From contig JABYQR010000243.1 of assembly GCA_022592445.1 (NCBI GenBank), positions 1 through 64,000 of the forward strand: a DNA stretch of 64,000 bases, given 5' to 3'. The stretch's first letter is position 1. The number at the start of each line of letters is the position of its first letter. Position numbers and translations under genes: made by a program. Positions 38,863 to 60,890 of the stretch are shown piece by piece. Source of the DNA: Cytidiella melzeri (Eukaryota; Basidiomycota; Agaricomycetes; Polyporales; Irpicaceae). The notes under the pieces were generated by a model. The model saw nothing but the letters and a program-made list of their open reading frames with translations, did no database searches and was not told where the DNA came from.

Positions 38863-39513
38863 TATGCCATCTCTCGCTGTGCTCTATGGTGGTCAATTTT
38901 CATTGATGCCACAGGTTTACTTCCATAAAGACCAACAATTTTGCAAGCAAGTTCTCGTACAGTGCCATGTACGCTACCATCTTAAACAATCCAAAGCAAA
39001 AGCGGTCTCATTGCGATGAAACCGTGCTCCTTTGTGTCATACCAGGACTTGGCGAGCCCTCACTTGAGCAGCTCAATGCCGTCATTTGGTCATTCGTGGC
39101 TGACATGTTACAGCTTGGTGACGGTACGCCCTTCATCTCAGTCTCATTTGCAGCCATCTGATTGAATGGCAGGCATTCCGCTGAGAGCCCACGGTGTCAA
39201 CAAGTGCATGCTTACTCACGTGTTTGTGTTCATGAATTCTTCTGATTTACCTGCTAGTTGTAAGGTAACTGGGCTCTGATTGTGTGCCAGCAAATACTTC
39301 ATGTGTCCGTGGTGCTGTCAAACGGTGGCATTGCTCACACATGGGGACTGTTTCACTCCACAAAATGAGCCAATCTATAAATTGATTGACCTGTGTCAGA
39401 TGTACATTTACGGCCTATAGAGTTTCAACCGCGTAAGGACTGGCAATACCTGAAGTGCGCATTCTATGCTCAAAATAAGGACGCTGCACAGCGTGAGGAG
39501 ATCACCCGAATGA
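38863..39513 (+). pseudogene. Tnp2/Plavaka-like transposase, 5' segment
   Basis: Exons on the plus strand read VLLCVIPGLGEPSLEQLNAVIW (39025-39090), GIPLRAHGVNKCMLTHVFVFMNSSDLPAS (39172-39258), CPWCCQTVALLTHGDCF and PIEFQPRKDWQYLKCAFYAQNK..REEITRM (39413-39512). This is the pattern of the Agaricomycete CACTA-superfamily transposases (D-L-P-A, then a CxxC knuckle). The gene is interrupted by the 7.66-kb element after codon ATG-A and resumes at 47182. Its beginning abuts Helitron H3. Confidence 0.65.
39506..39513 (+). repeat. 8-bp target-site duplication, left
   Basis: CCGAATGA, repeated exactly at 47174-47181 on the other side of the element. Confidence 0.9.
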
Positions 39514-39751
39514 TAGTCTCGTACCCAGACGTCAGGGGAGACAGGGAGACACGGTCGCGGTGCTCCCGGAGGCAGTCGCTGGCACTCCTTCCGTATGTAG
39601 TAATTTTGTTCGTAGCCCAAATATATTGAATGATGGCGCGGATTGTTATTTTGTGCGCGTTCTGACATCTGGTCTTTTTCGCCCGTCTGGGTGTAGATCA
39701 TCCCCCACGTGGCTTCACTTCTCAGATGAAGACGCGCAATCTATGGGCGCC
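39514..39751 (+). repeat. Left terminal inverted repeat of the RecQ/DUF6589 element
   Basis: Pairs with 46940-47173 over its whole length with modest divergence and small indels, ending at GGGCGCC. It contains GGTGCTCCCGGAGGCAGT, GATGGCGCGGATTGTTA and GGGTGTAGATCATCCCCCAC, all mirrored on the right. Confidence 0.85.
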
Positions 39752-39863
39752 TTATCAACATTGCTCGCCTCGGGACGCGCTCGCCCTCCCGCCGTTCGTT
39801 GTCAGTCTGTCTCCCTCACCTTCAGCGTGTCCCCTGCCCTCGGAATTTGCTAAGTCCAACAAC

Positions 39864-42800
39864 ATGGACCTTGACTCTGACTATGGAGACTTTTACCCGC
39901 CCCTTCCTCTTGTAGAACTGCCTCAAGAACTGGCCGGCTCTGTATCTCCAAAACCTCCTTCCCCTGCTCGTAGTACTCCCAGAAAGCGCAAGAGATCTAC
40001 CGTTGACGAATAATCAGATCAAGAGTTCCTCATACAACTTCAACCGCTTGCTCCAAGGACCAAAATGCATGCGGAAAGCTACCGGAACCTTGAACGAGTG
40101 CGCGAGCAAGCTGAAACTGATCGGGAGCAACAGTACTCGTCCTCTGCAGCGCGGGAAGCTATGAAGGTCGAAACACAGAAGAGGACTCAAAACAAGACTC
40201 CAAAGTGGTATCAGGCTGACCCAGGAGAGGCGTTCCTTCTTGGTATGGATGTACTTCTGGCTTCCGCTACAGGCTCGGGCAAGACTCTCGCATTCTTACA
40301 AGCTCTCCTCGTGGACAAGACGGAAACAACGAAGCTCGTAATCATTTCTCCTTTGAATGAGCTCAAGTACAACATGGTCCGTATTTCTCACGTCAATATC
40401 TCCCTCGTACGCTAATCAGCTCCTTATATGCACTTGCGCGTGTGCACTTTTTAGACTGATCGCTGCAACGCAATGGGTCTCCCAGCTCTTGCTGTCAACT
40501 GAGACATGTGGAAGAGGGATAATACTCTTCACAAGGTATGTGTCAATCCTTCCACTCTACCAAATTCTCACCTACTGCATGTAGAAACTGCTGGACCACC
40601 AATTTCGGGTGATACTCACATCACCGGAGATGATCTTCGGCCACCCTGTTTTCTCAAAGATGATGCGAAACTCAGAATGGACGAAGAAGATCATTGGAAC
40701 AGTTATAGACGAAGCGCACTGCGTCCTCGAGTGGACAAGTTTTGTACCGCGTTCGGCAAAATCGAAAAAGCACGCTCCTACCTTCCCGGAAAGCCCATCT
40801 TCGCCACCTCTGCTACTCTCACACCATCTATGATAGACTCGCTTATCAGTACTCTGTCATTCACAAAGGGAAATACATTCATTTTAAATGTGGGTAACGA
40901 TCGCGCAAATATTACTCCCATAATTTGTCGCACAGTTGCAAGTGACAACGACTTCGAGGCGTTGGAATTCCTATTAGACGAGGTAGATGAAGACAGACCG
41001 CTCATTCGCACCATGGTCTTCTTCAAGACTCGAGACCTTGCCCGTCGAGCCGGCCAGTACATCAAGGGCAAGCTACCCGATAATTCTCCTTACCGCGACC
41101 AGATCTTTTCGATGTGGGCTACCAAAAGCTCCGAGGCCAAGCGCAAGATTATGAAACGCTTTTGTGATGGCAAGATCAGAATATTGTTTGCCACTGAAGT
41201 GGCCAAAATGGTACGTATGCTCTCTGCATCTACAGCATCACTTGTGTTCACTGTTGAGCCCAGGGGATGGACCTGGGAGACATACGACGGGTAGTCCAGT
41301 TCATGATTCCGGAGATGCTCACTCAGTTTACTCAACACGCGGGACGAGCTGGTCGTGATAGTGCGCCAGCTATTGTTGTCCTTCTTGTGGAGCCATCGGT
41401 TTTCAGTAAGGTGCGGAAGCGTAAGCCATCGTCTTCTGATACCACACTGTCAGTCGAGCAGGAACAGAAGCAGAAAGTAGAGGCTCCCTGGGCCACCTCG
41501 GCTGCAGTCAAGACTGAGGAACTCGATCATGCACTAGATCAGTGTGCGGAGATTCAGGAACAAGGCACCGTAGAAGAAGAAGAAGAAGACGAATATCATT
41601 GGGATGAGGAGGAGTACCTCATGTATGCCGATCTGTATCTTGCTGAATACCACGACGACAATGAGGAGCCACTCCTGGACCAGCAGCCAGACCATAATGA
41701 TCAAGATATATTAGAGTCTGCCGCAACCGTGACGCCAGATGCAGAAGCTGAAGAAGCTGTGGACAACAACTTCAAGTACCGCCGCAAGAAAGTGGAACCA
41801 CACATGCGATCACTCGCTGCTACTGGTGGGTGTTGCTGAGAGGTTGTAGATGCCTACTACAGGAATCCACGTGGAAATAGAGGTAGGTCCATCTTTTCGA
41901 AGCGTGATACACTAATTGATGTATGCTAGTTCTCACCGTAATATGCTGTGACAACTGTGTCCGCAAACGTGGCAACAGCAACCAGGCTGCCTTGTCAGAA
42001 GCCGAGACAGCATTGCTCGCACTAATCACCCGCATAGAATCAAGGCGTCCCCCACCTCCATTGGCAGAGTATTCTAACGACGCGTCAAGACGTTGGAACA
42101 ATCGTAAGAAGGACATCCTCAACGACCTACAGATGTGGCAACATGAGGTTTGGCAGGCCAAGTACCAGCCAGCTGTACTCCCACCCGAATCTCTCATTTC
42201 TGACCGGATGCTATCTACTCTGGCGTTTCAAGCACACATCAAGACCATGGGCAATCTCGAGATTGCGTTGCCGGACTGGGCGTGGGCTGGCGAACTTGGA
42301 CCAGGAATTCTCAAGAGGATCGAAGATTTTGATACTAGCTGGCTGGCGACTCATGAGCTCAAGAAACAGACGAACAGTGCGCTACGCAAAGAGAACACAG
42401 CGATTCAAAGAGCCATCACTAACTCAGACCGAAACAAGATTCGCAAGGGCGACCGTCTTGCCAAGAAATTAGAAGACGGCACTCTCCCCCCTCGACCAGG
42501 ATCTTATCTTGCATGGGACGAAGACGTCGACAATTTTGTTCTCCAGGACAACCCCCAAGACCCAACACACCCTCTTTCCCTACCGGAGCCCTTTGAAGAG
42601 GCCCTGCTCTGTTACTACGTGGAGAGTGTGCTTACTGTCGCGCTTGAGCTCATCACCCTCGTCGTGACTCCCCCGCTGGATTCTGTACCTATTCCTCTTT
42701 ACTATCGCCGGACTGAAACCTCTGTACCTACTCTGATTCCTCGTCGACCTGCTAAGCCCCGAGCCGCCATTCCAATGCCCACCGCGCCTGTAGTCCCTGC

Positions 42801-43317
42801 CAAACGCAAAACTCAAATCAAGCCTTGTATCGCTTTCAGGCCGCCTAATGATTCTGAGTCTCCTCAAGACTCGACACTACCTTCATTGACTGTCTTCAAA
42901 CTGTCTACTCTTGCCGATGCTGGAGTGATCTTGCCTCAAGCACTTGATGACCCTTCTATGACTACCCTTGCATCCTGTTTGTCTGCAACCTTGCCCTCGA
43001 CCTCGTCTCTCGCTAGTGACACTGCCATTGCACCTCAACCAGCAAAACCAAAGCCCAAGCCCCGCAAGTCCTGCAAACCGCGCAAGCCTGTTCTCACGAT
43101 GTCCCAAGGCAAGGCAGAAGAGGCTCCAGCCGTCTCCCACAAAGAGACCCAAGAATCTGCGCTGTCTGCGCGATCGACTTCTTCAGCTACTTCAATAATT
43201 TCCAAGGATCGCCTGAAGCCTCGCCCGGTCTCGAAACGCACAACGGTAACCTCTCAAAATGACTGCAACGATGATGAGAAGCTTGTACGACCATTCAAAC
43301 GACTTCGATTTGAGTAG
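39864..43317 (+). pseudogene. RecQ-family ATP-dependent DNA helicase of the element
   Basis: Exons 39864-40376, 40455-40535, 40585-41210, 41264-41882 and 41930-43317. The N terminus has a nuclear-type basic patch (TPRKRKRSTVDE). Motif I is ASATGSGKT (about 40260), motif Ia VIISPLNELKYNM, motif II VIDEAHCVLEW (40700-40730), motif III FATSATLTP, then VFFKTRDLARR, ILFATEVAKMGMDLGDIRRVV and motif VI QHAGRAGRD (41335-41360). A Cys cluster (GGCC..YYRNPRGNR..CCDNC) matches the RecQ zinc-binding region. An acidic insert and a long Pro/Ser/Lys-rich tail follow to RPFKRLRFE. Lesions: TAA at 40012, TGA at 40500, a shift near 40735, TGA at 41837 (CGA expected). Expected role is 3'-5' unwinding, perhaps during transposition. 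Confidence 0.85.
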
Positions 43318-43332
43318 GAATACAATATGTAT

Positions 43333-46126
43333 TTATAAAACTACAACTGCATCTGCGTCTGCCAATGAAGTTGCACCCTCATCCTCCTCAAAGTCTTCCT
43401 CCGTTGATGTGACTGAGACACGTTTGGCCGACCACCGCTTGATCTTCGTGGTAAGCTTCTGAGCATCACTTCCAATCGCTACGTAGTCGAGGGGATGCGA
43501 ACTGAGGTGTCGGCCAGGCTTTTAAACATGTGGCCCCGGCGTGCCATTGCGATAGTGATCCAACAGATTTACGATGTCCGTCTCGGACTCCGGCGTTGTG
43601 TGCGATTTGCCTCGGCGGAAGTGATTAAACTCATTCTCAACGTGGTCTTTGATCTTACGCTGAGCAGGTATGGACACGGAGATTTTTTTGATGTATTCCC
43701 AGCTAGAGAAGGGTCCATGGACAGCGAAAATGTGCTGGTGGGCATAATGAGGAAACGATACCAGATGGTAGGGGTGTTACTCACCTTGATGTCTCGGATG
43801 TTGTGCTCCTGCAACATGTCAAACGCGAGAAACGCACCCTTGCGTCCTGTTGTGTTTGCCAGCCAGCAGTGACGGATGACAAAGGATCTATGAAGATAAA
43901 CATCAATATTATCTCGGGTGTAGAGATGGGGGACTCACTTTAGCTCCTCGGTCCACTCATGGCAAAGAGCCTGCAACAGCTCAAGGAGCTCTATGGTGTA
44001 GTTTGAGTTCGGTCCACCGCTGAAGCAAAAGAGCAGGCGAGGTAGGAGGTCCTCCAATCGCCCAACATCTCCTGTCTTCATGGCGTCGTCGAGGTCAACG
44101 TAGTCTAAGAGATCCCGACACAGCAGGATGCTGTGCATGAGCATGTTGTCCTGCTCCTGGCGCGGTAACATCTTGTGCCGTACGAGAGCGGATGTTGAAG
44201 CGTATTCGTCGACTATTCGAGTGGCAAAAGCCTTCAGCTGCGTGGGTAAAAGTGTGCGTAGACTTATGATCTCGTCTTTCTGGCAGACAATGAGCCAGAT
44301 GTTGCGGAATCGAGAATCTGTGGTATGCCACAGGGCCTCCTGCATTCCGTGATGAAACGGGCCTGTACATGTGATCAGTATAGATGATTTTGTACCCTGA
44401 CACGCAACGCACCCTGGATAGACGTAGTGTGCAATCCCTTGCGCTTGAGATTGTCGAAGCCATGCTTCAGGCCAAAGAGGTTCATGGTCTTGAAGTACTG
44501 TCGGTGAATTGAAGTCTCCACGGCAAGCTGTGCATGAAACCAGCCAAAAACCTCAACGGCCTGGTCAAAGTGTTGGAGGAAGTTGAAGTCTTCGCTCCGC
44601 TCTTTCTTGATAGAGCAGATCCGGACTGTCGTAAGCTGATCACCTGCCCAGACAAGGACGTGCTTGAAGGCATGGTGATTTTGAGCGTCGGGACCGTCAA
44701 GGCGGAGTTGCCTCAGCCACTCGTCCATACAATGCCTAGTCCCCTCTTGAGAGGCAGACTCAATGTGGACAGTGTCGAGCATGTATTGACATACTGCATG
44801 CTGTTCACCAGTTGGTAGCTGCAAGACAGGAGGGGGAGGAGAGAAGATGCCGGCACTCTTGTGCTCCTAGTGGTCAAAATCAAAGGCGGGAGCGTTGACG
44901 AGGAACTGAAGGACCCTGTATATGGCGCGAATACGAAGACGAGGGGCAGCAGCGATTTCCAGCTTCAATATCTCGACAGGCATAATGATATTCCGAAGTT
45001 GCGCACGACGTTGTTGTTGATAGCTGTCACGTCGTGGCCACACAACGGAGGGATCCTTTATGACGTATACGGTGGCTGCAGTCCCGCTGTTGAAATGGCT
45101 CTGGTTGTTGGTGCGTTGTTCATACACCTTGAAGGCGAGGTTGAGATTGTCTTGCGAGACACGGAAGGGGAACCTGAGGATGTTGGCAAACATCCGCTGC
45201 CGCGCGTCCTCTGAGAGCCTGTCAATAAGTTGGTATACCCACAAGTGGCTCATGGTAATCCCATACAGATGTGTGGTGTCGTTGGCCCTGGCGGCAAGAC
45301 CACTCGCCTTGAAGTACGCACTGTTAAATCGTTGCAGGAGACAGCAGCGCTGAGATTGACTGTACGAGCACATGCTAACCATCATGACAATGGGCTGTAT
45401 CGACGTGAGCATTGGCACAGTAATGCGCGAGATGGCGGGCTTACTGCGGTGGGGTCTTTATACGTGTTTTGTTCAATTTGTGTCGGTGTCGTGGAGGCGC
45501 CGTAAAGAATCTTCCATAGAATAGGAGCCTTTACCTGGGTCTTGGTCGCGAGGTCTCGAAGGTCGAGGGTGAGGAGATCTTCCTCGGAGAGGTTTTTGGT
45601 AGGCGCTGTCATAACCTCCTTCAGCTGGTCCATCTCGGCGTCGACAAGCATGCCGACGTTTTCGACAGACCAATTGTCCAGCTCGACCCGCACAGCTTGA
45701 GTTCTGAACCCTTTTGTGTGGAACCGGTCTCGGCCATGTCTCCACTTGCGGATCATGTACGCGAAGTTGTCGCAGTGGAGGAAGGCGGTGCGGGCGTACC
45801 TAAAACGTGTGAGAGATGTCCCGCATACCATTCCAATGGTTTAGCACTTACTTAGTCTCATGTGTATCCGCTGCGTCTTCCTGGAGGGCCGTGAGGTAGT
45901 AGAGGAGATTTGCTATGTCAAGTTGATGGGTCTTGCGCATGTACTTGATAGACAGTTCGATGCGCCTAGCGACCTCACGCGTGGAAAGGTTCTGGAGAAT
46001 GCTCCTGCAATAATCCGTGCGTCCCAGTATGCCCGAGCGGCGCGCTTGAACCTCTGTTTCGGTGAGGACTTGATCTTCATCGTCACCTAGCTGGAGGTGA
46101 GAGAGTAGAGGGGCAAGGGGAGGCAT
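43333..46126 (-). pseudogene. DUF6589 protein, candidate transposase of the element
   Basis: Starts at ATG 46126 (MPPLAPLLSHLQLGDDEDQ); exon 1 ends at 45851 and exon 2 begins at about 45801 (YARTAFLHCDN). Core motifs in order: SLSQRC-like block and LYGITMSHLWVYQLIDRLSEDA, QDNLNLAFKVYEQR, HFNSGTAAT (45160-45080), LPTGEQHAV, WLRQLRLDGPDA, VWAGDQLTTVRICSIKK (44660-44610), FGWFHAQLAVE, LLDYVDLDDAMKTGDVGRLE, NYTIELLELLQALCHEWTEEL (44005-43935), HCWLANTTGRKGAFLAFDMLQEH, ending DADAVVVL. This order is that of the Agaricomycete DUF6589 family. Lesions: frame change near 45437 and TAG at 44867-44869. Conserved acidic residues in QDN, GDQLT and YTIELLE could be a DDE-like triad (inference). Confidence 0.75.
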
Positions 46127-46423
46127 TGGAATGGGACTGTGGTTGCAGAGAGGAGAGAGGTTGAAATATAGGCATTTTATAGGGAAGGTAATACGTGAGG
46201 GACCATGTTCGCAAGTTGGTCGGTAGTCACTACGAGAGTCAGACATAAGTTTGAGAGTTCTTCGGCACGACTGCAACCTCTGTCACACAACGAGGGAGAA
46301 AGACGTACCCGTGGTCTGTTTGAGTGTGTACACGAGGATTCATTGGTACATTGTGTGAGTTGTAGAGTAAGGTTCAAACTCGAATTATATCCATCCGATT
46401 GTCCCTCCGGAGAACACCATGTT

Positions 46424-46603
46424 GGAGGACTCCGGTAGCAGATGCTCCGCTACTGTGTCTAAGAACGTGTGTTGTAGGTTGTCGTCGAGGTGTTGGTGCT
46501 GGCCGAGGACTCAGGTAGCAGATGCTCCGCTGCGGTGAGGTTATGGAGAGGAGGAGGTGGTAAAGCCGGTGTTGGAGGACTCCGGTAGCAGATGCTCCGC
46601 TAC
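46424..46603. repeat. Three subterminal palindromic repeats
   Basis: The 30-bp unit GGAGGACTCCGGTAGCAGAT.. occurs at 46424-46453, 46504-46533 and 46574-46603, spaced 70-80 bp. Its core GTAGCAGATGCTCCGCTAC has nested dyads (GTAGC..GCTAC and AGCA..TGCT). Two copies of the same core occur at about 60762-60788 and 60829-60855. Regular spacing near the element end suggests protein-binding sites. Confidence 0.75.
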
Positions 46604-46786
46604 CGTGAGTTGGAATGTGGGTGGTTGATGGTCATGGTGGTCTATCCAAAGAGATCCAGTAACTCGATGTGGCGAATAGATTCGCCGACAAGAGCACCGG
46701 AGAGAAAAGGAGGAAGGAGGCTAGGCTCGTTGGAATGGGTGGTAGTGATGTTGGTAGTGATGAGAGCAAAGATAAAAGGAGTAGGA

Positions 46787-46842
46787 GTGGTGGTGGTGGT
46801 GGTGGGGTGGGGGGTGGGGGCATTGCAGGAGGTGGAGGTGGT
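46787..46842 (+). repeat. G-rich low-complexity tract with G-quadruplex potential
   Basis: GTGGTGGTGG steps pass into GGGGTGGGGGGTGGGGG. The C-rich counterpart occurs at 60547-60580 in the related fragment. Long frames across this tract are artefacts of the simple sequence. Confidence 0.7.
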
Positions 46843-46939
46843 GTGGTCGCCGTGGTCCGTGGTGGTGGCAGCAAGAGCGGTTCGGGCGCTTGACGGGCAG
46901 GAGACGGGTTAAGCGCAGAAGGATCTTATCTACATTCAG

Positions 46940-47173
46940 GCGCCCATAGATTGCGCGTCTGTACCTGAGAAGTGGAGCCACGTGGGGGATGATCTACACC
47001 CAGACGGGCGAAAAAGACCAGACGTCAGGACGCACGCAAAGTAACAATCCGCGCCATCATTCGATATATCTGGGCTACAAACAGAATTACTATATATAGG
47101 AACTGCCTCCGGGAGCACCACGACCGTCTCTGCCTTTGTCTCCCTCTCTCCCTGACGTCTGGAACCGAGACTA
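46940..47173 (-). repeat. Right terminal inverted repeat of the RecQ/DUF6589 element
   Basis: Mirror of 39514-39751; its outer end ACCGAGACTA is followed by the target duplication CCGAATGA at 47174-47181. Confidence 0.85.
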
Positions 47174-47181
47174 CCGAATGA

Positions 47182-60429: not shown

Positions 60430-60890
60430 CCTGGGGGACGTGTTGATTGCAGGCGGTGGCGCCGATTTCGTGAGCGCCCAACATTTTTCAGGCGCCCAAA
60501 CCACTCTCGCTGCCACCACCACGTACCACGGCGACCACACCACCTGCAACGCCCCCCCCACCCCCCCCCCACCACTATCTTTATCTTTGCTCTCATCACT
60601 ACCAACATCACTACCACCCACATTTTTTGAACGAGCCTAGCCTCCTTACCGTTTCCTCTCCAAGTGGTGCTCTTGTCGGTGAATCTATTCGCCACGTCGA
60701 CTTACTGGATCTCTTTGATAAACTACCACAACCATCAACCATCAACATTCCAACTCACGGTAGCGGAGCATCTGCTACCGGAGTCCTCCAACACCGGCTT
60801 TGCCACCTCCTCCTCTCCATAACCTCACGGCAGCGAAGCATCTGCTGCCGGAGTCCTCCACCACCAGCTGTACCTCCTCCTCATCTCCAT
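60430..60890. mobile_element. Fragment related to the right end of the RecQ/DUF6589 element
   Basis: Reverse counterpart of about 46470-46905: GCTGCCACCACCACG..CCACGGCGACCACACCAC, the C-rich tract, TCTTTGCTCTCATCACTACC, and two copies of the palindromic core. It lacks the outer TIR and the genes, so it is a relic of another copy of the same family. Confidence 0.75.

Follow-up and report, generated by a model that had tools for sequence, protein, structure and literature searches.

A RecQ-bearing DNA transposon of the polypore Cytidiella melzeri, most likely of the AcademH lineage, with DUF6589 as its probable transposase

The DNA analysed here is a window of 64,000 nucleotides from the wood-rotting polypore Cytidiella melzeri (Irpicaceae; assembly GCA_022592445.1, contig JABYQR010000243.1, positions 1 to 64,000, or C161:1-64000), and the element in question spans positions 39514-47173 of this window, or 7660 bp. 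The element is a DNA transposon of class II and most likely belongs to AcademH, a lineage of the Academ superfamily reportedly set out by Kojima in 2020, with DUF6589 as its probable DDE transposase and a convergent RecQ-type helicase as its second gene. The AcademH assignment is made because helicase type, duplication length and host group fit the published description of the lineage, and it is from this fit that we infer Academ membership. The kind of element is most likely already known, and the gain lies in naming DUF6589 as the transposase of a RecQ-bearing element.

In the window copy, two terminal inverted repeat (TIR) arms, at 39514-39752 and 46938-47173, each about 239 bp long, match at 83% identity over 248 columns (blastn, E 9e-71). 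Their tips read TAGTCTCGTACCCAGACG (39514-39531) and, inverted, TAGTCTCGGTTCCAGACG (47156-47173), and the exact 8-mer CCGAATGA flanks the element on both sides (39506-39513 and 47174-47181). The two genes enclosed by the arms converge, the helicase stop codon (43315-43317) and the DUF6589 stop codon (43333-43335) being separated by 15 bp. The features are as follows:

39506..39513, no strand: left target-site duplication CCGAATGA, an exact match to 47174-47181
39514..39752, plus strand: left TIR, tip TAGTCTCGTACCCAGACG (blastn against the right arm; 45 genome matches)
39864..43317, plus strand: RecQ-type helicase gene with introns (PF00270, split PF00271, homologue at C713)
43333..46126, minus strand: DUF6589 gene with introns, probable DDE transposase (PF20231; tblastn with P0003 and P0010; fold of P0003)
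46938..47173, minus strand: right TIR, tip TAGTCTCGGTTCCAGACG read inward (blastn of the arms)
47174..47181, no strand: right target-site duplication CCGAATGA, an exact match to the left copy

The original prediction had described inverted termini of about 235 bp, a perfect 8-bp duplication and two convergent genes with stops 15 bp apart, all of which are borne out. It did not mention that both reading frames are broken. The helicase frame is interrupted by TAA at 40011-40013 and, given the inferred splice sites, by TGA at 40500-40502, and comparison of the DUF6589 frame with the homologues P0003 and P0010 (tblastn) reveals TAG at 44867-44869 and TAA at 43522-43524. Because each gene carries two in-frame stops, the window copy is probably not autonomous, and would be either dead or moved only in trans.

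Searches of the same assembly (49.7 Mb, 731 contigs) place this copy within a large family. The left TIR of the window has 45 matches. At one mismatch, the tip pattern TAGTCTCGNNNCCAGACG occurs 291 times and its reversed control 3 times; at two mismatches, a second tip, CAGACTCCTACCCAGTCG, occurs 70 times, and 2 times when reversed. The left-TIR matches and the excess of TAGTCTCGNNNCCAGACG over its control put the element ends beyond chance. A DUF6589 search yields 120 matches that merge into 82 loci, and the matches to the window helicase and to that of C397, taken together, merge into 67. At 46 of these helicase loci a DUF6589 locus is no more than 5 kb away, where about 1.2 would be expected from a rough uniform estimate. 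Every one of the 46 pairs is convergent, the median gap being 2244 bp; the remaining 21 helicase loci have no DUF6589 match within 5 kb. As both queries are element helicases, the pairing count speaks for element-type helicases and not for all RecQ genes. With its 5 kb limit and both queries, it supersedes an earlier count made at 8 kb, in which 34 loci out of 46 were paired, every pair being convergent and one of them 7.7 kb apart. Seen from the other gene, a matching helicase stands within 5 kb of 47 of the 82 DUF6589 loci, and the other 35 have none. Two of these 35, C724 and C111, were read, and both contain a divergent helicase open reading frame, convergent on DUF6589, in which Pfam detects Helicase_C and, at C724, also DEAD. 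The same two belong to a set of DUF6589 loci whose open frames are long, at 750-1019 aa (C724, C229, C61, C452, C111, C130 and C353, with L089 and L090 also listed); these loci are possibly old sublineages of the module.

Divergence in the DUF6589 domain tracks divergence in the helicase piece across 17 elements (Mantel r 0.90, p 0.0001), and in 14 of them both genes have the same nearest relative. As judged from sequence, the helicase and DUF6589 form one unit, of which the helicase is no passenger. The proposal that RecQ and DUF6589 constitute a mobile module is upheld in this genome by the matching TIRs and duplications, the many copies and the convergence of every pair. The further suggestion that the module could explain the expansion of DUF6589 genes is supported within this genome for much of that expansion at the least, given the helicase match at 47 of 82 loci and the helicases also read at C724 and C111.

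Inverted tips bracket at least 15 of the 46 pairs on both sides and were placed on one side of 10 more, the tips compared being those listed and entered for the contigs bearing pairs. Target-site duplications were judged in 16 two-gene elements, comprising the 15 two-tip pairs and C151; C713, with an altered right tip and an unreadable duplication, and the one-sided pairs other than C151 were omitted. An exact 9-bp duplication is present in 13 of the 16 (C127, C151, C93, C397, C405, C236, C290, C568, C712, C75, C179, C195 and C466) and an exact 8-bp duplication in one, the window copy, while none is found in C177 or in C22 (C22:74986, where both right ends were tried and which is scored as one miss). 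An alternative right end of C457 also gave no duplication. Among 15 short elements with the same tips, ten show exact 9-bp duplications, three exact 8-bp duplications and two a duplication with one mismatch. The duplicated sequences, of 8-9 bp, vary and share no fixed motif. The usual length in the family is 9 bp. In the window copy, with its exact 8 bp, the loss of one C from a C-run on the right side is conceivable. Two elements, C405:8675-14762 and C397:7087-13174, are identical across 6088 bp, each with its own 9-bp duplication, and their 200-bp flanks are only 29% and 21% alike in ungapped comparison, indicating unrelated sites; this is the pattern left by recent transposition. At C451:9915-11793, a 9-bp duplication surrounds what looks, from its sequence, like a short deleted relative, with 97% identity in the left TIR and 93% over a 107-residue helicase stretch. 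Some elements lie inside or against related termini: the C93 duplication (L044, C93:18378-18516) directly abuts another inverted tip, and the left flank of C713 (L037/L038) ends in TIR-like sequence.

In the window DUF6589 gene, the start codon of which is a guess, three of the six minus-strand pieces match PF20231 (best E 2.6e-37), and Pfam assigns DUF6589 alone to the four DUF6589 proteins submitted, with no hAT transposase or dimerisation, P-element or MULE domain at E values up to 1. A sequence profile search of the PDB with DUF6589 likewise gave nothing below E 0.5. In the confidently predicted structure of P0003, an all-helical segment is inserted into an RNase H fold, and D, D and E residues are conserved; the best matches of the model among solved structures are Hermes, the P element and RAG1, with Hermes and the P element ranking first. 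DUF6589 is almost certainly the transposase of the element. No relative of DUF6589 was found in the viral and prokaryote contigs scanned, and the names DUF6589 and PF20231 gave no link to a transposase in a collection of 5.39 million open papers, although one may be in print elsewhere. Upstream of the DUF6589 gene, at 46785-46825, lies a G-rich simple repeat that could fold into a G-quadruplex, a structure on which RecQ helicases are known to act. A hairpin-like motif, GGTAGCAGATGCTCCGCTACC, forms spaced clusters at 46434-46604 and 60759-60849 of the window; when one mismatch is allowed it has 106 genome matches, and its reversed control has 0. Within the window element and that of C713 it lies on the DUF6589 side. 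It may belong to another repeat, since a looser pattern detects it at only 2 of 110 extracted loci and most of its listed places are on other contigs.

The helicase gene of the window has a DEAD domain (PF00270; 40014-40412, E 3e-9) above the Pfam cut-off, and its Helicase_C domain (PF00271) is divided over two pieces, each below it. The helicase of the element is identified as RecQ-type because the PDB matches of the homologue at C713 are WRN (E 4e-12), BLM, RecQ1, RecQ5 and bacterial RecQ. When the helicase core was used to look for homologues, 46 helicases of the RecQ family or of other kinds were retrieved; those with a named organism were bacterial and none could be tied to these elements. 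The C-terminal part of the helicase gave no match.

The anatomy of the element and the fold class of DUF6589 suggest how it might move. DUF6589, an RNase H-fold nuclease with its large helical insertion, would bind the long TIRs, excise the element and insert it into target DNA, mostly with a 9-bp stagger; cut-and-paste is the mode of movement that we infer. The RecQ-type helicase, which is a stable second gene of the element, would probably melt or remodel the ends, or aid repair or copying around transposition.

An alternative that appears unlikely, yet fares best among those considered, is that DUF6589 is a transposase of hAT/P/RAG architecture outside Academ that acquired RecQ independently, as in KolobokH. 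DUF6589 would then represent its own hAT/P/RAG-fold superfamily, with a co-diverging RecQ helicase, unnamed throughout the Agaricomycetes. The assignment of DUF6589 alone by Pfam, the 8-bp duplications found alongside those of 9 bp, and the uptake of RecQ by transposons more than once (PMC9587614; PMC3627910) agree with this alternative, whereas the helicase type, the 9-bp duplications and the host group fit AcademH as described. A Mutator-like element is a far weaker candidate, favoured by the TIR length, about 240 bp, and by duplications that are mostly of 9 bp. Long TIRs, a 9-bp duplication and two convergent genes are also compatible with the MuDR plan, but no MULE domain is detected in the four DUF6589 proteins at E up to 1, Hermes and the P element top the fold search, and Mutator is not known to carry a RecQ gene. 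That an ordinary transposon carries a host RecQ gene by chance or single capture has next to no probability. In its favour, fungi also have RecQ helicases among their host and subtelomeric genes, and Agaricus bisporus var. burnettii has 19 subtelomeric models of such genes, with no role assigned (PMC7473861). It was rejected because all 46 pairs are convergent and the divergence of both genes is correlated (r 0.90).

Reading DUF6589 as the transposase gives a job to a Pfam family that is expanded but has had no function assigned, and proposes a model-derived fold and D, D, E residues for a probable Academ transposase. DUF6589 genes look like transposase genes and not host genes, and annotations of mushroom genomes should treat them accordingly. 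The C405 and C397 copies, probably recent because they are identical, offer material for asking why some transposons carry a helicase.

Among known systems, KDZ/Zisupton, with 8-bp duplications (PMC12730594), was set aside for want of a Pfam match, and so were hAT and MULE as families, although remote kinship with them is conceivable. The DUF6589 model resembles Hermes, a hAT transposase, in that its predicted RNase H fold contains an insertion made up of helices; the element differs from hAT in lacking the Pfam hAT domain, in its mostly 9-bp duplications and in its helicase. It differs from the P element in the absence of the Pfam P-element domain (E up to 1) and, again, in its helicase. KolobokH is likewise a fungal DNA transposon that carries a RecQ helicase, but Kolobok duplicates the 4-bp TTAA (PMC9587614), in contrast to the varied 8-9 bp seen here, and is ruled out. 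The view in the original prediction that RecQ is an unusual transposon partner is not supported, given KolobokH and the listing of a RecQ helicase in Academ (PMC3627910), and neither is the view that the transposon type is undescribed, AcademH having been published with duplications of 9 or 10 bp, against 3 or 4 bp in AcademX, a pattern that the same source ties to helicase and nuclease (PMC10045372). Putative non-autonomous Academ elements are widespread in a mushroom (PMC8290104), and AcademH is recorded in Basidiomycota, Ascomycota and Mucoromycota, with PF00270 and PF00271 named (PMC10799480). Relative to these descriptions, the family differs in its 8-bp minority, which includes the window copy, and in showing no 10-bp duplication. 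It resembles AcademH in its DEAD/Helicase_C RecQ-type helicase beside the transposase, in its mostly 9-bp duplications (13 of 16 two-gene copies) and in its Basidiomycota host.
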